Assembly (NCBI GenBank): GCA_029432795.1 | Contig: JARNMJ010000042.1 | Coordinates: 1 to 39,584 of the forward strand | Reading direction: 5' to 3' | Origin: Pontiellaceae bacterium B12219 | GTDB taxonomy: Bacteria > Verrucomicrobiota > Kiritimatiellia > Kiritimatiellales > Pontiellaceae | Length of the DNA: 39,584 nt | Part shown: piece after piece, positions 5,652 to 39,584 of the stretch | Numbering within the stretch: position 1 is the stretch's first letter | Layout: the number at the start of each line of letters is the position of its first letter | Position numbers and translations under genes: made by a program | Notes under the pieces: generated by a model | The model's database searches: none | The model's input: only the letters and a program-made list of their open reading frames with translations | What the model was told of the DNA's origin: nothing

Positions 5652-5728
5652 GGGGGTGTAGCTCAATTGGTTAGAGCGCCAGCCTGTCACGCTGGAGGTT
5701 GCGGGTTCGAGTCCCGTCACTCTCGCCA
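5652..5728 (+). tRNA. tRNA-Asp (GTC)
   Basis: A full cloverleaf of 77 nt with encoded CCA. Acceptor GGGGGTG pairs with CACTCTC (two G-T pairs). The D arm contains GCTCAATTGGTTAGAGC, the anticodon arm is CCAGC-CTGTCAC-GCTGG with GTC at 5686-5688, and the T arm is GCGGG-TTCGAGT-CCCGT. A strong terminator follows 6 bp downstream, so it is a single-gene transcript. Confidence 0.97.
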
Positions 5729-16347: not shown

Positions 16348-17109
16348 CTACGGATAGTCCTGCCGGGTCGGGCGGACGACGATGTCGCTGATGTTGATGT
16401 AGGGCGGCAGGGAAACAATATGGTTAATGGTGTCGGCAATGTCGTCGCAGCTGGGCAGAGGACCGAACTTTTCATGGAAGCTGTCGACCAGCTCGTCGCT
16501 GTAATTCGCGCCTGCCTGAAATCCACTGATCACAATGCCGGGCTGCACCAATGAAACACGCACACCTTGCGGACCGACATCGCGGCGCAAGGCTTCTGCC
16601 AGCGCATGAACCGCATATTTCGATGCGCCGTACACCGCACTGAAGGGCGAAATATGCCGGCCAACCACGGAACCGATAATCACGATGTCCGCGGCCGATT
16701 TCGGGAACGCCGTTTTCTGGATTTCCACCATGCGCTGTGCCGCTTTCTGAATCAGATAGGCCGTGCCGTTGACGTTGATGTTCATCAATTCCTGAAACTG
16801 TTCCAGATCGGCATCTTTGACGGAACCGCCCAGTCCCCGGCCGGCATTGGCCACAACGATATCGGCTTCGTGGCCGAATTGCTTAACGGCATGTTCAAAC
16901 AACCGCTCCAGCACATCAGGAGCTGACGCATCGCCGGCTACACCGCAGAACGCGGCACCGAGTTCTTTTTCAAGCGCCGTCAGCTTTTCAGCCGTCCGCC
17001 CGCATCCAACCACCTGCATACCGTCCGCAATGAATGTGCGCACCGTTGCTTCGCCGATACCGGATGTGGCCCCTGTTACAATCGCAATACGTTTTCTATT
17101 TTGGTTCAT
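16348..17109 (-). CDS. Short-chain dehydrogenase/reductase
   Basis: A 253-residue classical SDR, NAD(P)-dependent and cytosolic. It shows the cofactor loop TGATSGIG, the adenine-side CGRT, VANAG, catalytic Ser in IIGSVVG, and YGASK with the catalytic Tyr and Lys. The arginine after the second strand (GCGRTAEKL) favours NADP(H). It resembles the YdfG-like serine/3-hydroxy acid dehydrogenase group, but the substrate cannot be read from sequence. The next gene upstream on the same strand (PLD-like) ends 41 bp away. Its 3' end stops 4 bp from REP copy 3. Confidence 0.85.
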   Translation of the reverse strand: MNQNRKRIAIVTGATSGIGEATVRTFIADGMQVVGCGRTAEKLTALEKELGAAFCGVAGDASAPDVLERLFEHAVKQFGHEADIVVANAGRGLGGSVKDADLEQFQELMNINVNGTAYLIQKAAQRMVEIQKTAFPKSAADIVIIGSVVGRHISPFSAVYGASKYAVHALAEALRRDVGPQGVRVSLVQPGIVISGFQAGANYSDELVDSFHEKFGPLPSCDDIADTINHIVSLPPYINISDIVVRPTRQDYP

Positions 17110-34103: not shown

Positions 34104-34176
34104 TCTTATCCTCCTGAAGTATTGGTGCAGTTCATACCGACCAACCTTTACCGCTACAATATCGAAATGCGACTTT

Positions 34177-35475
34177 ATGAATAACGAAACCCGAACCACA
34201 CCCCTGCCCGACAAAGTAGTACGACGCCATGCAGAGCTGCTCGAAGAGCTGCTGCCCGAATTTTCCCGACTCGTTATTGAGGAAGGAAGACCGGCCGATG
34301 CCCTGCTTTACCGCTTTCTACGAACACGCCGTGAACTTGGCTCACGCGACCGCCGCTTTCTATCGCAGGCAATCTTTTCCTATTTCCGCTGGTACGGCTG
34401 GACTGTTGCCAGGCTGAAGCTCAGTGGCTCCGAGGCCTGCCTGCTGGGCACGGCACTCGATTCAACCGAACTGCCCTACAGCTTCAGCTATCTGGAAACC
34501 CGCTGCAAACTGCCCTTCAAGGTGGAACCGCTCGCACAACTGAGCACCGAGCAGCAATGCGCAAAACTCAACGAGCTGTTTGCCGGCCGCGAAGACTTCC
34601 AACCCCTGGAACTTTCCGATCTGGTTCTGCCGGAGTTTGGAACCGTGATCGACCCGGAACAGGAATCCGACCTGATTAAATCCTTTCAGCAGCGTCCGCC
34701 GGCATGGATCCGTTCCCGCGTCGAGGCGAACAATCTGGTCGGAGTTCTGAAAGAAAAAAACGTTGTCGGCGAAATACATCCCGTACTGTCTGCGGCCATT
34801 GCTGTCGATGCCGGTATCAGCCTCCAGAACGTGCTTCAGGCCCAGTCCGGACAGTTTGTTGTACAGGACCTCGCCTCACAGTGTGTCGGGCTTATTGCCG
34901 ATCCTCAGCCCGATGGCGATTGGTGGGACTGCTGCGCCGGTGCCGGCGGAAAGTCGATGCATCTGGCCGATCTGATGCCGGAAGGCAAAGTGCTCTCCAC
35001 CGATGTACGCATTGACGCGCTGAAGGAACTTAAAAAACGCGCCCGGAAATACGGCATCAAACCCATCCGTACGCAGCTCTTCAATGCCGTGAATGATGAG
35101 CCGTTCACCAAAACCTTCGATGGCGTGCTCGTGGATGCCCCCTGCTCCGGCTGGGGAACGTGGAGCCGAAACCCGGATGCCCGCTGGCGCGCTTCGCGCC
35201 GCGATGTCATCCAGTGCGCCACCCGCCAACTCAAAATTCTGAATACGGCCAAGTGGTGCGTAAAACCGGGCGGATTACTGATTTACGCCGTCTGCACATT
35301 CACCCGCCCGGAAACCGAAGAAGTGGTTCAAGCCTTTTTGGAACAGCATACTGACTTCCAGCTTGAACCTTTCGCGAATCCGATGACCGGCGCGCCGACC
35401 GACGGACAACTGCAGATCTGGCCGTGGGATGCACCCGGCGACGGCATGTTCATTGCCCGGTTAAGACGTTCATAA
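34177..35475 (+). CDS. RsmB/NOP2-Sun family RNA m5C methyltransferase
   Basis: A 432-residue RNA cytosine-5 methyltransferase. The N-terminal about 130 residues are helical, as in the NusB-like part of RsmB (LLPEFSRLVIEEGRPADALLYRFLR). The catalytic domain has SAM motif DCCAGAGGKSMHLA, motif IV VDAPCSGWGTW (Cys about residue 321) and motif VI AVCTFTRPE (catalytic Cys about residue 372). RsmB methylates 16S rRNA C967 in E. coli; the short N-terminal part leaves the target open. ATG 34177 has no strong ribosome site, but upstream extensions would enter the divergent NDK-like gene. Followed by a strong hairpin. Confidence 0.88.
   Translation: MNNETRTTPLPDKVVRRHAELLEELLPEFSRLVIEEGRPADALLYRFLRTRRELGSRDRRFLSQAIFSYFRWYGWTVARLKLSGSEACLLGTALDSTELPYSFSYLETRCKLPFKVEPLAQLSTEQQCAKLNELFAGREDFQPLELSDLVLPEFGTVIDPEQESDLIKSFQQRPPAWIRSRVEANNLVGVLKEKNVVGEIHPVLSAAIAVDAGISLQNVLQAQSGQFVVQDLASQCVGLIADPQPDGDWWDCCAGAGGKSMHLADLMPEGKVLSTDVRIDALKELKKRARKYGIKPIRTQLFNAVNDEPFTKTFDGVLVDAPCSGWGTWSRNPDARWRASRRDVIQCATRQLKILNTAKWCVKPGGLLIYAVCTFTRPETEEVVQAFLEQHTDFQLEPFANPMTGAPTDGQLQIWPWDAPGDGMFIARLRRS
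34597..34611. repeat. TTCCARNNNYTGGAA, copy 15
   Basis: Exact copy, centre ACCCC, inside the RsmB-like gene; phase F-Q-P-L-E. Confidence 0.9.
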
Positions 35476-35537: not shown

Positions 35538-35861
35538 CTATTTTTCCAGCAGCTCAAGAAAATCAATGTCGGTGTTTTCGAAGCTGATGCTGCCGATACG
35601 CAGCTGAATGGTTTCGGCGGTAGGCGGAGGCAGCTCGAGGGCATCGAGCACCAGTTTTCCGGTGAATTCCTCGTCCCATCCGCGCAGCCGTAAACGCACG
35701 CGCCGATTGAGCACAATATGGAATTTTTCTTCCAGCCGCTGGAATGCCAGTTTCTGCTCGGAATGGAATTGAAACCAGCCCTCCTCGCCCAGATCACGCG
35801 GGAATTCGAGCAGGTCGTCTGCGGCAAAGTTAAAATCAAGCTGGTCCTTCGGTATTTCCAT
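35538..35861 (-). CDS. Hypothetical protein, 107 residues
   Basis: I do not recognise a family. The protein starts MEIPKDQLDF, is acidic in its first third, then has alternating strands (FHIVLNRRVRLRLRGWDEEFTGKLVLD) and ends TDIDFLELLEK. There is no signal peptide, membrane segment or cysteine. The second third suggests a small beta-barrel-like or SH3/PilZ-like fold, but that is only a composition impression. ATG 35861 is preferred over upstream in-frame starts because the extra residues are not protein-like; the ribosome site is weak. It is a lone gene, convergent with the methyltransferase. A dispersed palindrome is inside it. Confidence 0.6.
   Translation of the reverse strand: MEIPKDQLDFNFAADDLLEFPRDLGEEGWFQFHSEQKLAFQRLEEKFHIVLNRRVRLRLRGWDEEFTGKLVLDALELPPPTAETIQLRIGSISFENTDIDFLELLEK
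35730..35744. repeat. TTCCARNNNYTGGAA, copy 16
   Basis: Exact copy, centre GCCGC, inside the hypothetical gene; phase F-Q-R-L-E. Confidence 0.9.
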
Positions 35862-35945
35862 AAGCGCGCCACGATAGCCAAAAGCAGACCGTTTGAAAAT
35901 TGGCTTTCTTATTTTTCCAAGGGTTAAAAAGTCAACTGGCTGAAT

Positions 35946-36059
35946 ATGAACAGGTTGCCGAAAATGGTTTTTCAACGTTTCGCCGATCGAACCGACCTGT
36001 CCAATACCTGCGAATTCATCATCAACGTGCTTGAAGAAAAAGGCCTGCGGGTTACATAA
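35946..36059 (+). CDS. Possible 37-codon ORF, unknown
   Basis: ATG 35946 (or ATG 35964) opens a short frame ending TAA at 36057-36059 and containing MVFQRFADRTDLSNTC and IINVLEEKGLRVT. The composition is protein-like and the end lies 20 bp before the lipoprotein start, but it lacks a ribosome binding site. It may be a small protein or the 3' remnant of a larger gene. Confidence 0.3.
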   Translation: MNRLPKMVFQRFADRTDLSNTCEFIINVLEEKGLRVT

Positions 36060-36079: not shown

Positions 36080-36283
36080 ATGAAAAAACAACAGATTACC
36101 CCTCTTTGTCTTACCGTCCTCATGATGCTTGGAAGCGGATGTATTACCCGAACCGTTAGTGATCAGCCCCAATACCGCGGAAACTCTTCGGCAGGAAAAA
36201 AGCTCGGATCAAAAACGGACAATGAAAATGTAATTTCCAAAGAACGCATTTGGTTCTGGCAAAGCGAATTCAGAAATCCGTAG
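36080..36283 (+). CDS. Small lipoprotein, unknown
   Basis: A 67-residue exported lipoprotein. Residues 1-20 are a lipoprotein signal (KKQQ, hydrophobic core, lipobox LGSGC with Cys21). The mature part is only about 46 residues, polar, ending KERIWFWQSEFRNP. AAAGGA precedes the start at 9 bp. It resembles the small YceK/YidQ-like lipoproteins in size and layout but I cannot assign a family. Another frame immediately after it (from about 36282) holds a broken zinc-ribbon ORF, so the two may be parts of one former gene. Confidence 0.7.
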   Translation: MKKQQITPLCLTVLMMLGSGCITRTVSDQPQYRGNSSAGKKLGSKTDNENVISKERIWFWQSEFRNP

Positions 36284-36317: not shown

Positions 36318-36600
36318 ATGGGTGAAGAGATGGCCTCGCTGATTCATCCCCGGGCGCGGGGAACCCTTTATGCCGCCGCATCCGTATTCGGCCCGTTCCA
36401 GAACGATATAAACGCTGAATCCACCTATGCCCACCGCTGCCCGAAATGCGACCACCACACACTGGTTCGTCTCCGGCCCCACGATCAGAAATCCCCGTGA
36501 CTTTGTAACCACTGCGGAAACGATGCCGATGAATTCGGCAACAAACTTTCAATGAAAAAAGGTCGGAACCCGAAAGTTCCGACCTTTGAAAAACTGGGGT
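36318..36600 (+). pseudogene. Zinc-ribbon ORF interrupted by in-frame TGA
   Basis: From ATG 36318 the frame gives 60 residues ending with HRCPKCDHHTLVRL and a TGA at 36498-36500. In the same frame it continues directly with LCNHCGNDADEFGNKLS, which supplies the second CxxC of a zinc ribbon. A TGG-to-TGA change (giving P-W-L-C) would explain it. The remaining frame runs through the hairpin at 36558 to a stop at 36600, so the original 3' end is also unclear. Selenocysteine is possible in principle, but no partner evidence exists. Confidence 0.45.
36558..36587 (-). terminator. Intrinsic terminator (minus direction)
   Basis: Perfect stem AAAGGTCGGAAC / GTTCCGACCTTT (36558-36569, 36576-36587) with a 6-nt loop. 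On the minus strand it runs into TTTTTT; on the plus strand only TTT follows. It lies just beyond the minus-strand tRNA 3' fragment, the place of a tRNA terminator. Confidence 0.85.
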
Positions 36601-36616
36601 GAAAGACGGGATTCGA
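36595..36616 (-). other. tRNA 3'-end fragment, candidate attachment site (attR)
   Basis: Read on the minus strand, these 22 nt are TCGAAT (T-loop), CCCGT (T-stem 3' side), CTTTCAC (acceptor 3' side), C (discriminator) and CCA: the exact spacing of a tRNA 3' end. C at position 73 is typical of tRNA-His. The 5' part of the tRNA is absent upstream (T-stem partner and acceptor do not pair), so this is a fragment. The terminator follows on the left, and A+T-rich accessory DNA starts on the right, as expected for the distal end of an integrated island. Confidence 0.6.
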
Positions 36617-36671
36617 TTTAACAGAAACCACATCCTTCTACCAACAAGATACTTACGCAACCCTTCAGGTC

Positions 36672-36720
36672 ATTGCTACACTTTGCAGATTTAACTTTGT
36701 GTGCCAAAATGTGTAGCAAT
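36672..36720. repeat. Inverted repeat ATTGCTACAC inside island edge
   Basis: ATTGCTACAC (36672-36681) and its exact complement GTGTAGCAAT (36711-36720) flank a 29-nt A+T-rich loop; TTTG/CAAAA extends the pairing imperfectly. It lies 56 bp inside the candidate island boundary and could be an arm-type recombinase site or a hairpin. The rest of 36617-36850 shows no gene. Confidence 0.7.
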
Positions 36721-36850
36721 TCAGGGAGTAAAATACCAGTCAAAACCCATACTCGTTCAGTCCCGATTAAAAAAAGTTTAAAAAAAATCAAAATCACCCA
36801 CTTGAATGTCTGGCGATTTGGATAAGTACTTCCAGTGATACAATACAGAA

Positions 36851-37111
36851 ATGGTCACTATCGAAATTATGAACGAAGAACTTAAAGATGCTATTCGGCA
36901 ATTTACCCTTAGGGAAAAAGGCATAGACTGGGCGCGGTGCTTAAGGACGGATCATCCATCTACGGGCATTCTTGAGACAAAAGAGTCATTCATGCTCGCA
37001 ATGCAAAACCAGACCTCGAAGCATCAAAAAATTACTATATATGAAATCAGCGTTGGGGGCGGTCAAATCAGCTTTGCAACATGGCGCGATATGGAAACGC
37101 GAATATTTTAA
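36851..37111 (+). CDS. Hypothetical protein, island gene
   Basis: An 86-residue protein I do not recognise, with a helical first half (NEELKDAIRQFTLREKGIDW) and a beta-type second half (ITIYEISVGGGQISFATW). Its base composition is more A+T-rich than the genes left of 36.6 kb. A TACAAT hexamer lies only 7 bp before ATG 36851, so the start may be leaderless, or may be the ATG at 36869. An overlapping frame (36972-37205) ends later; a frameshift joining the two cannot be excluded. Weak gene call. Confidence 0.4.
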   Translation: MVTIEIMNEELKDAIRQFTLREKGIDWARCLRTDHPSTGILETKESFMLAMQNQTSKHQKITIYEISVGGGQISFATWRDMETRIF

Positions 37112-37294
37112 AAATGCGAAAAAATATTTATTGGGGAATCTGAATATTATCCCCACCCCAGAGGACAGGGTACGGGCTTTAAAAATAAATCATTTTCGGT
37201 TGTGAATATTTTTCTGGAGTCGAATTCATTTCATCACCAGAAACCAATATTTAGAATTACCTCTGCAATAAATCTATCAATCCTAGCGGGGATT

Positions 37295-37504
37295 CTATCT
37301 CAGATGCCCCTTAGCTGAAGACCCCCTCGCAAAGATAAAACTTAACAATGGCTTACCTCCCGCAATGAGAATACCAAGACCTATTGAACCCAATCCTGCC
37401 AAGAATAACTCCTCTGGCACTTCGATTTCCGTTTTCGCTATAAGAAGAAACACAATAGCCCCAAAGCCAATGAGAACAGCACTAAATATAAATCGCTTTT
37501 TCAT
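37295..37504 (-). CDS. Small two-helix membrane protein, island gene
   Basis: 69 residues: a positively charged start (MKKR), membrane helix 1 (about 5-24), a short acidic loop (KTEIEVPEE), helix 2 (about 33-57, glycine-rich LAGLGSIGLGILIAGG), and a basic tail. Unknown function. It is the last in a row of four same-strand small genes (38676 to 37295) and starts 12 bp after its upstream neighbour. Ribosome site AGGAT lies just upstream of ATG 37504. Confidence 0.55.
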   Translation of the reverse strand: MKKRFIFSAVLIGFGAIVFLLIAKTEIEVPEELFLAGLGSIGLGILIAGGKPLLSFIFARGSSAKGHLR

Positions 37505-37516
37505 GAGGATAATTCC

Positions 37517-37702
37517 TTAAACCTTCGTTACTTTCCACTTCCCGCAAACCTTACAGGATCGACTTCCGTATTTCGGATTTTGCAATGAATTGGAACAGTG
37601 TACTGGAGCTTTCATGCACCCAACCGTTCCACAATTATCACATCGAACAAGTTGACTACCGCACCTTCCGCCGTTATTTGCAGTATTTTGACATTGGGAC
37701 AT
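37517..37702 (-). CDS. Small cysteine-rich (zinc-binding) protein
   Basis: 61 residues with eight cysteines in zinc-ribbon-like pairs: SQCQN, GGRC, CDNCGTVGC, HCSN, SCKVCGKW. It probably binds one or two zinc ions. ATG 37702 was chosen because GAGG lies 7-8 bp upstream; a longer reading to 37759 overlaps the neighbour by 44 bp. It sits between a zinc-ribbon membrane protein gene and the small membrane protein gene. Function unknown. Confidence 0.6.
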   Translation of the reverse strand: MSQCQNTANNGGRCGSQLVRCDNCGTVGCMKAPVHCSNSLQNPKYGSRSCKVCGKWKVTKV

Positions 37703-37715
37703 CTGAATACCTCGC

Positions 37716-38270
37716 TTATTTAGATTCGTGTGTGGTGGTTTGCGTAGTTGCAGATTCATCCAATATAAATGCAGGGTTTATCACCAAGGCTGGTTTTTTC
37801 TTGATTCCCCCTTCCATATAGGAGTGAGTTAATATCCCCTTTATCATCACCGTGTCACCTTTATGCGAATCCTTGAAAAGCTTCCGTTCATTCGAGTCTC
37901 TGAATTCAAGCTTAACTCTTATTTCGTAATCCGAGTTATCTTCATAAAATTCGGTTTCAGAGCGATTAAGTTTGGAAATAGTAATCGGCCACTCAACTAC
38001 GACCCCGCTGTTTCCATTTACGAACTGTTCAATCGATCCCGTTTCGAGCAATACTTTTGCTACCTCGGATCGTTCCAGATCAGAAGGCACAGCCTCGCTT
38101 AAGGAGTCTATCTCGTTCTGAGTTGTTGAAATGGCACCAATGATTATGAGTATCGGTATTATTAAGAAAACGAGAACACAGCCCAACCCTCTGTAATTTT
38201 TCGCCCCGCATTCAGGACAAAATTTATTAGTCCGCTCCATCTTGTTGCCGCATTTTTTACATTTTACCAT
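37716..38270 (-). CDS. Zinc-ribbon, membrane helix and OB-fold (tRNA_anti-like) protein
   Basis: A 184-residue protein with a clear layout: N-terminal zinc ribbon (CKKCGNKM..FCPECGAK), one membrane helix (about 30-48), a linker with acidic residues, and a C-terminal domain (about 70-170) with the EVAKVLLETGSIEQF start and DTVMIKGILTHSY segment typical of the OB-fold tRNA_anti-like domain. The OB domain is predicted outside or at the membrane face; the ligand is unknown. It follows the next zinc-ribbon membrane gene by 25 bp. Confidence 0.7.
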   Translation of the reverse strand: MVKCKKCGNKMERTNKFCPECGAKNYRGLGCVLVFLIIPILIIIGAISTTQNEIDSLSEAVPSDLERSEVAKVLLETGSIEQFVNGNSGVVVEWPITISKLNRSETEFYEDNSDYEIRVKLEFRDSNERKLFKDSHKGDTVMIKGILTHSYMEGGIKKKPALVINPAFILDESATTQTTTHESK

Positions 38271-38295
38271 TCTATTATCCTCGACTAATAAACGA

Positions 38296-38676
38296 TCAAT
38301 TACTGTTCAAATACCCGATGACGAAAATAATTCCGAGTATAACGGGCAACGTGAAATGAAGCCAAAATATCACCTTGAGAAAGGTAAAACCCGGAGGGTT
38401 TTCATTGATGATGATGCTGGTTTTCTTGGCTTGCGATAAAAACACCAAGTTTGCGATTAAACCCACGATATAGAACCCCACATAATAGAGGATTAAAGCA
38501 ATAAGCCCCTGCCAGACGAACGCCTTATTCCTATGTAGTGCTATGGTAATTTCATCTGCCATTGTTGCGGTGTCAGATGGCATTTTTGGTTCAGAAATGG
38601 TAGCCTCTGCTTTAGGGTTGCAATTGTCGCAAGTCTCCCCATCAGGTATCTCTTTTCCACAATCTACACAAAACAT
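38296..38676 (-). CDS. Zinc-ribbon membrane protein, island gene
   Basis: 126 residues: an N-terminal zinc ribbon (CVDCGKEIPDGETCDNC), a polar linker, then two membrane helices (about 55-78 and 100-122) with a short charged stretch (QAKKTSIIINEN) between. It probably heads the minus-strand run of four small genes. A GGGGGATG-like stretch upstream of ATG 38676 can serve as ribosome site. Function unknown. Confidence 0.65.
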   Translation of the reverse strand: MFCVDCGKEIPDGETCDNCNPKAEATISEPKMPSDTATMADEITIALHRNKAFVWQGLIALILYYVGFYIVGLIANLVFLSQAKKTSIIINENPPGFTFLKVIFWLHFTLPVILGIIFVIGYLNSN

Positions 38677-38878
38677 CTACATCCCCCTCATCATTTAAAG
38701 CCAAAAACCTCTATCACTAACTCAGGATCAAGAAATTCATCCATTGAAGTGATCAGGTTCATACCAACTCGTCACAACCAATCCCATACAAGTCAATAAG
38801 CGTATATTAAGAAAGCTGGAACACAAGCCATTTGTGTCTCAATAGATCACAAAGCATTGTTGGGAGATAATTCCCGCA
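38677..38878. other. Divergent spacer
   Basis: A 202-bp A+T-rich gap between the zinc-ribbon operon and the XRE-type regulator gene. No gene seen; it should contain both promoters and any operator of the regulator, but I see no convincing dyad. Confidence 0.4.
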
Positions 38879-39112
38879 ATGAAGAAAACTATTTATGATG
38901 AACGCTACATTGCTCTGGTTCTGTGGCTAAAGAAGACACGAAAAGAAAAGAAGATTACCATGCGGAATCTTGCCGCTCAGATGGGATGTAGCTATGCGTT
39001 CATTTCCAAATATGAAAAGAACCAAGTTCGATTGGATGTACTTCAATACTTTGAAATTTGCACCCTGCTAGAGGTAGACCCCTCTGATGGGTTTCGACAA
39101 TTAGGAACTTAA
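38879..39112 (+). CDS. XRE-family helix-turn-helix regulator
   Basis: A 77-residue single-domain DNA-binding protein. The HTH spans about residues 13-70: ALVLWLKKTRKEKKITMRNL, AAQMGCSYAFISKYEKNQVR (recognition helix) and LDVLQYFEICTLLEVDP. Such small Cro/CI-like proteins control island or phage genes, or act as antitoxins. GGGAG precedes the start at about 11 bp. It is divergent from the zinc-ribbon gene row, which it may control (inference). Confidence 0.85.
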   Translation: MKKTIYDERYIALVLWLKKTRKEKKITMRNLAAQMGCSYAFISKYEKNQVRLDVLQYFEICTLLEVDPSDGFRQLGT

Positions 39113-39161
39113 AAGTTACCACCAAGACAAATGTGCTTACATTTATTCTGAGTTATCACTT

Positions 39162-39371
39162 TCAACGCAACCAATATGATGGATAGATGACACCCTTCTC
39201 ACGCTCCTTAGTCGATTCATAGACGTTGCTGGAATGCAGGGCTTTATATCGCAGAACCTTCAGCAATGGAACAAGGTCTCGAAACCCTCCACAAGTTTCA
39301 TGCCCCTCATCCAAATAGGATTCTTCCTTCAATGCCTTGGATATATCGGCATCCGTCATTTTGTAATCCAT
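39162..39371 (-). CDS. Hypothetical protein, island gene
   Basis: 69 residues from ATG 39371 (GGGGA site 6 bp upstream); a TTG start at 39413 would add 14 residues. The sequence MDYKMTDADISKALKEESYL with GFRDLVPLLKVLRYKALH is helical and soluble. I do not recognise it. Convergent with the XRE-type gene, with 49 bp between. Confidence 0.4.
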   Translation of the reverse strand: MDYKMTDADISKALKEESYLDEGHETCGGFRDLVPLLKVLRYKALHSSNVYESTKEREKGVIYPSYWLR

Positions 39372-39584
39372 AGTTTCCCCATTCAAAAATCCCAGTATAT
39401 CAATCGGTGTCAAATCGCCTCACAACCCAACTTTTGACCATTCACAGGTTGACTTATTGCGAATCCATGATAGTGCGCCCTGATTTAATATAGAGCCTGT
39501 CCCAAAGTCTCCGATTTTATTTTCACCTCAAAATCAGGCCGGAGCTAAAAGTCGGATTTGTGCCGCTTGACGGCTTGTGCACTC
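39372..39584. other. Window end, no gene seen
   Basis: No coding frame with support and no clear RNA. A TAGAGCCTGTCCCAAA stretch near 39489 faintly recalls insertion-sequence ends, but no transposase is visible. Confidence 0.4.

Follow-up and report, generated by a model that had tools for sequence, protein, structure and literature searches.

Can a few nucleotides of tRNA sequence, standing apart from any tRNA gene, mark the edge of a genomic island? The question is raised by positions 36595–36616 of contig JARNMJ010000042.1 of Pontiellaceae bacterium B12219, a stretch of 39,584 nt that we refer to as the window and that is the entire contig (C210 in our numbering). A first-pass annotation, made from the sequence alone, had noticed there a minus-strand tRNA 3′ end without its 5′ part, with a terminator to its left and A+T-rich, accessory DNA to its right, and had proposed the right attachment site (attR) of an island inserted into a tRNA gene, probably tRNA-His. 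We are highly confident that 36595–36616 is indeed such an attR and that the integrative island to which it belongs sits in tRNA-His, because a partner site, an integrase gene, an empty site and parallel cases in related genomes were all found. The island is an ordinary tRNA-targeted one, the kind of event is well known and the underlying biology is textbook; here both ends, a shortened integrase gene and uninterrupted relatives are caught together, and a 22-nt tRNA tail read by eye is seen to mark an island boundary exactly, even with its partner tRNA on another contig.

The tRNA-His fragment and its intact partner

The minus strand from 36616 to 36595 reads TCGAATCCCGTCTTTCACCCCA, the 22 nt of tRNA-His that run from the T-loop to CCA. 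Searching all 273 contigs of the genome (4.75 Mb) for this sequence, with as many as two mismatches allowed, gave only two matches, both exact: the fragment itself and C240:126421–126442, which is the 3′ end of an intact tRNA-His (anticodon GTG) at C240:126366–126442. A DNA query revealed no second full tRNA-His in the genome, making the gene single-copy. The 5′ part of the tRNA is missing at 36.6 kb, since neither ARAGORN nor Rfam detects a tRNA nearby, the sole tRNA of the window being a tRNA-Asp at 5652; these scans, together with the two-copy exact match, rule out an independent or decayed tRNA gene at this position. Identity between the two sites ends on both sides of the shared word (upstream, GGGT in the intact tRNA against TAAA at the fragment; downstream, AATTTTAC on C240 against GTTTTTCA in the window), and the shared core is therefore 22 nt long.

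The terminator that had been noticed beside the fragment is a minus-strand hairpin with a T tract at 36554–36588 (z = −4.6 over the surrounding 101 nt). Its homologue in Pontiellaceae bacterium B1224 (L048:9853–9890) lies at an equal distance from an intact tRNA-His, marking it as the native tRNA-His transcription terminator, parted from the tRNA body by the insertion. On C240, a fresh hairpin terminator (AAAGCCCTGTA...TACAGGGCTTT) stands immediately past the CCA. Base composition changes at the same place: a maximum-likelihood break in G+C falls at 36528, less than 90 nt from the fragment, with a log-likelihood gain of 83, and G+C drops from 0.53 on its left to 0.41 on its right, while equal-length stretches across the rest of the window range from 0.50 to 0.56, none falling below 0.50. 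The right end of the island, 36617–39492, has a G+C of 0.41 and holds genes absent from the tRNA-His regions of relatives; island DNA on the C240 side, at 0.42, compares with a native reference of 0.52–0.53.

An intact tRNA accompanied by a displaced fragment is the signature on which the published Islander principle relies (PMC4383910). As in the islands defined there, the intact tRNA, the co-oriented displaced 3′ fragment, a tyrosine integrase beside the intact tRNA and a restored tRNA are all present, and a core reaching from the T-loop to the 3′ end, as here, is among the common subsites. The fragment is intergenic, lying about 42 nt past a zinc-ribbon gene, and so overlaps no conserved protein domain. 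In contrast to those islands, the ends described here lie on two contigs, making the length filter inapplicable, and the integrase open reading frame (ORF) is shortened. We found no report in the literature of such an island for the genus Pontiella.

Uninterrupted relatives, the integrase gene and arm-like repeats

Relatives that lack the island bear directly on its boundary; those compared include Pontiellaceae bacterium B1224 (G001), Pontiellaceae bacterium B12227 (G016) and Pontiella sulfatireligans F21 (G021), relatives that put the window in Pontiella or the group immediately around it, within Kiritimatiellales. The site in G001 is empty: the zinc-ribbon gene, the terminator and a complete tRNA-His follow one another with nothing between, and the match to the window spans the terminator and the 22-nt core, ending at 36616. 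In G027, a single 7-kb stretch carries HU, P-II and amtB, then tRNA-His, then the lipoprotein, 145-aa, rsmB and NDK genes of the window's flank, with a 253-aa ORF separating tRNA-His from the lipoprotein gene. The same native block stands about 5 kb from tRNA-His in G016, and the intervening DNA is A+T-rich. From the synteny in G027 and G016 we infer the order C240 tRNA (plus strand), island, reverse complement of C210, which would place the fragment downstream of the intact tRNA in the same orientation. Neither outcome that the first-pass annotation had named as telling against it, namely the lack of any tRNA gene ending in these 22 nt or native genes collinear on both sides in relatives, was encountered.

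Beyond the new terminator on C240 lies a long tyrosine-integrase ORF directed away from tRNA-His. It counts 396 codons from the first TTG, although a GTG following GGAGG at L003:16543 appears the likelier start and would give 383 aa. Its N-terminus matches DUF6538 (Pfam, 4.5e-11) and residues 259–392, the core-binding region, match the phrog_1 integrase (1.4e-8), so that a tyrosine integrase gene, recognised by these two regions, lies inside the interval, as in Islander-defined islands. The ORF shares 27% identity over 372 aa with a complete 602-aa tyrosine integrase from another genome of the genus (G005, 8.7 Mb). Relatives of the integrase were found neither in phage records nor in the species genome collection (peptide pattern). 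Prophages and integrative elements with phrog_1-type integrases resemble the island in the core-binding region of this ORF; unlike them, its visible part carries no phage structural, replication or conjugation gene.

Both ends of the island also contain short repeats close to the core. The motif TTGCTACACATTTTG occurs once per end, less than 130 nt from the core on the window side and less than 90 nt on the C240 side, where it opens a tandem pair of 12-bp units (TTGCTACACATT TTGCTACATATT). The window carries tandem units (TTGCTACACATT TTGGCACACAAA) on the minus strand at 36693–36719 and, 23 bp away, an inverted copy (ATTGCTACACTTT) on the plus strand at 36672–36684, which forms an inverted repeat with 36708–36720 and whose motif also occurs near the other island end. 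With zero or one mismatch, the arm-like motif is confined to this one spot of the window. The two ends have in common an exact 16-nt word, and 0 of 2000 Markov resamples produced a shared word of that length in the 300 bp next to the core. At matching positions G005 has the tandem TTGGTACAAATTC TGGTACAAAATC. By position and arrangement, the repeats inside both ends fit putative arm-type sites of the integrase.

These features are consistent with a simple course of events. An element whose own sequence duplicates the final 22 nt of tRNA-His, from T-loop to CCA, would have recombined with these 22 nt in the host gene, the reaction presumably being carried out by the element's own DUF6538-type tyrosine integrase bound at the arm sites. 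The element's copy would then have made the 3′ end of the tRNA whole again and brought in a new terminator as well, and the host's original 22 nt and terminator would have been moved to the far end of the insert, beside the zinc-ribbon gene and rsmB. Could the fragment instead be a tRNA copy, degenerate or duplicated, that has nothing to do with integration and lies next to an unrelated variable region that happens to be A+T-rich? It is only 22 nt long, and the presumed halves of the island were not assembled together; yet the native tRNA-His terminator is still attached to it, it sits at the step in G+C, an integrase lies immediately downstream of its partner tRNA, and the uninterrupted junction of G001 and the synteny of G027 refute the idea, to which we give almost no credence.

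The contig break and the shortened integrase

The intact tRNA and the integrase had been expected beyond the right edge of the window. Both exist, but on the separate contig C240; C210 itself stops at the window edge, and the integrase ORF is shortened. The window ends 92 bp into an insertion sequence (IS), whose end (GAGCCTGTCCCAAAG..., plus strand, 39493–39584) has a TA flank and breaks the contig; the same 89–92 bp end seven contigs. C240 terminates 92 bp into the partner end (GAGCTTGTCCCATT...), with which four contigs stop, and TA flanks are present at every end of this IS. The body of the IS was not found in the contigs of the assembly. Since C210 and C240 stop in the two opposite ends of a single IS family, an assembly break has cost the island its middle part. 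In the simplest reading, a single IS copy within the island spans the gap from C240:127765 to C210:39492 and joins the two contigs, other pairings being possible. The island would then measure at least about 4.2 kb plus the IS if the contigs are joined directly, which compares with an Islander range of 2–200 kb, with a contig gap between the ends. A comparison of open frames across the joins singled out no pairing of IS ends, all pairings sharing the TA. As an observation on the assembly itself, the ends GAGCCTGTCCCAAAG and GAGCTTGTCCCATT are imperfect and break C6, C19, C55, C212, C224, C240, C250, C256, C268 and C272 in addition to the window, eleven contigs altogether.

A larger island, with further contigs between C240 and C210 and perhaps a whole prophage or integrative conjugative element, would be a variant of the same tRNA-His insertion. 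The seven type-A and four type-B IS ends allow other pairings, and the island in G005 reaches 16 kb. However, C240 is the only type-B end of low G+C, type-A ends of low G+C are limited to C210 and C55, and no phage structural family is seen in the window part; we regard this variant as unlikely, if worth keeping in view. A binning or assembly artefact, with C240 and C210 not belonging to one chromosome, seems very improbable to us: the assembly consists of 273 contigs, C240 and C210 both stop within IS sequence and the IS body is missing from the bin, but G027 holds the genes of the C240 side (amtB, P-II and HU) and those of the C210 side within 7 kb around tRNA-His, and the two ends agree in their arm-like repeats.

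Several points nevertheless weigh against an integrative island in tRNA-His. Its ends lie on two contigs and the interior between them is not assembled. C240 and C210 might come from different strains within a binned genome, although the synteny in G027 speaks against that. Among eight ORFs scanned in the visible part of the island, none is a phage structural or conjugation gene, and no excised circle was seen. Finally, the integrase ORF stops just before the expected catalytic domain, so that it does not encode a complete R-H-R-Y integrase.

We sought the catalytic half, as present in the G005 integrase, elsewhere in the assembly, and the only clear match is part of a different 603-aa integrase on C223, which rules out an integrase gene split and continued on another contig. 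The integrase gene on C240 is thus probably not functional, its ORF lacking the catalytic domain. Since the ORF ends before that domain and the domain is absent elsewhere in the assembly, the island has probably lost the capacity for autonomous excision, and the shortened gene suggests an element fixed in place. The integrase on C223 (15591–17345), a second and complete DUF6538-related enzyme in an open frame of 603 aa in the same genome, could serve as a helper at the sites of the island.

Repeated insertion at tRNA-His, and the genes around the junction

The tRNA-His of Pontiella has been entered more than once. In G005 (L105), tRNA-His is followed by the 602-aa DUF6538 integrase, a 16.2-kb island of unrelated cargo and a displaced fragment, TGAAATCCCGTCTTTCACCCCA, at 16423–16444, after which come a terminator and then DNA of 0.59–0.64 G+C. 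The two islands are alike in the tRNA, the DUF6538 integrase family, the side and distance of the integrase and the displaced 3′ fragment, and in both of them tandem 12-bp arm-like repeats are found some 62 and 75 nt past the core. They differ in that the integrases share only the 27% identity given above, that of G005 has a complete catalytic domain, and the G005 fragment starts TGAAATCC where that of the window starts TCGAATCC. The G+C of the G005 island is mostly 0.40–0.46, rising to 0.52 in its last 1.4 kb, which hold an IS1595-type transposase. In a further genome, G009, a short remnant is seen: about 350 bp past tRNA-His lies a fragment with two mismatches, and then a terminator. The window island, the G005 island and the G009 remnant are separate events at one target.

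We tentatively propose, putting the likelihood a little below even, that throughout the genus Pontiella a family of DUF6538 integrases uses tRNA-His for docking. These enzymes would recognise tandem 12-bp arm sites (TTGsTACAmATT) placed a constant distance inside the T-loop core and would deliver changing cargo, defence-like genes among it. The changing cargo in this proposal refers to a CARF protein, kinase-ATPase and DNA methyltransferase in G016 and to PbeA- and ApeA-like pieces in G005. The repeated use of tRNA-His in this little-studied genus of Kiritimatiellota offers a defined place to seek mobile cargo. The block of G016 (L047:5183–9807) holds genes for a CARF-family protein, a Ser/Thr-kinase-ATPase and a DNA methyltransferase; it is similar to a CARF-STK-AAA defence locus and contains neither an integrase nor a displaced fragment. 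In G005, L105:3131–7043 codes for a 1053-aa protein that contains RNA polymerase alpha-CTD-like domains and, next to it, for a protein that matches PbeA over the N-terminal third of the latter (PADLOC, 5e-62); the island also encodes, at L105:12479–14299, a protein distantly similar to ApeA.

The tRNA-His itself has an unusual acceptor stem. Comparison of L006:1501–1577 with the tRNA-His genes of relatives (L007–L031) showed adjacent U-U mismatches at 5:68 and 6:67 (GUGAUUG/CUUUCAC) in nearly all Pontiella-group genomes compared, with one mismatch and a U-G in three genomes; order-level relatives pair normally (GUGGGUG/CACUCAC). The 3′ partners of both mismatches lie inside the attachment core, which raised the idea of a chimeric tRNA-His made by the element. 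This idea is weakened by the presence of the mismatch in most of the tRNA-His genes compared within the family, including that of the empty-site genome G001, and in phage tRNA-His: the tRNA-His genes of several tRNA-rich phage contigs carry the same mismatched stem. Among 289 genomes of the phylum, none was found to have a GUGAAAG donor gene.

On the native side of the junction, the window continues the block seen in relatives. An NDK-domain gene (PF00334; 32943–34214, minus strand) lies opposite the plus-strand RsmB/F-type rRNA methyltransferase gene at 34159–35475 (PF01189, 3.6e-41), which is syntenic in G001, G016 and G027 at 73–77% identity. There follow a 145-aa protein gene (35538–35975, minus strand; 70–72% identity and the same place beside rsmB in these three genomes), a small lipoprotein-like ORF (36080–36283, plus strand; homologues of 39–47% identity at the same position in the three) and the zinc-ribbon gene (36318–36552, plus strand), the last native gene before the junction, at 71–75% identity to intact copies in G001 and G016. 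The zinc-ribbon gene has a TGA at 36501 where relatives encode Trp, its N-terminal start region also differs, and it is probably a pseudogene in this genome.

Right of the fragment, the accessory character proposed for this DNA is borne out by small ORFs for which no native synteny was seen in the relatives examined; no defence, phage or conjugation function could be assigned to the window part of the island, and we found no relatives of the island DNA in plasmids. ORFs of 86 aa (36851–37111, plus strand), 69 aa (37295–37504, minus strand, hydrophobic) and 80 aa (37517–37759, minus strand, Cys-rich) belong to no family. A 184-aa protein (37716–38270, minus strand) combines an N-terminal zinc ribbon (PF13240, 1.6e-5, just under the cut-off; phrog_14275, 8e-8) with a hydrophobic segment and has no relatives that we could find in viral contigs; its neighbour of 126 aa (38296–38676, minus strand) is a zinc-ribbon-like membrane protein by the Cys motifs in its sequence. 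A 77-aa Cro/C1-type helix-turn-helix regulator (38879–39112, plus strand; PF13443, 3.6e-8; PF01381, 1e-7) is followed by an 83-aa ORF (39162–39413, minus strand) with a weak match to DUF6096 (PF19591, 5e-4, below the cut-off). The frame of this last ORF runs on upstream past a TGA toward the IS (39413–39492, minus strand), which suggests the remnant of a longer island gene that has decayed.

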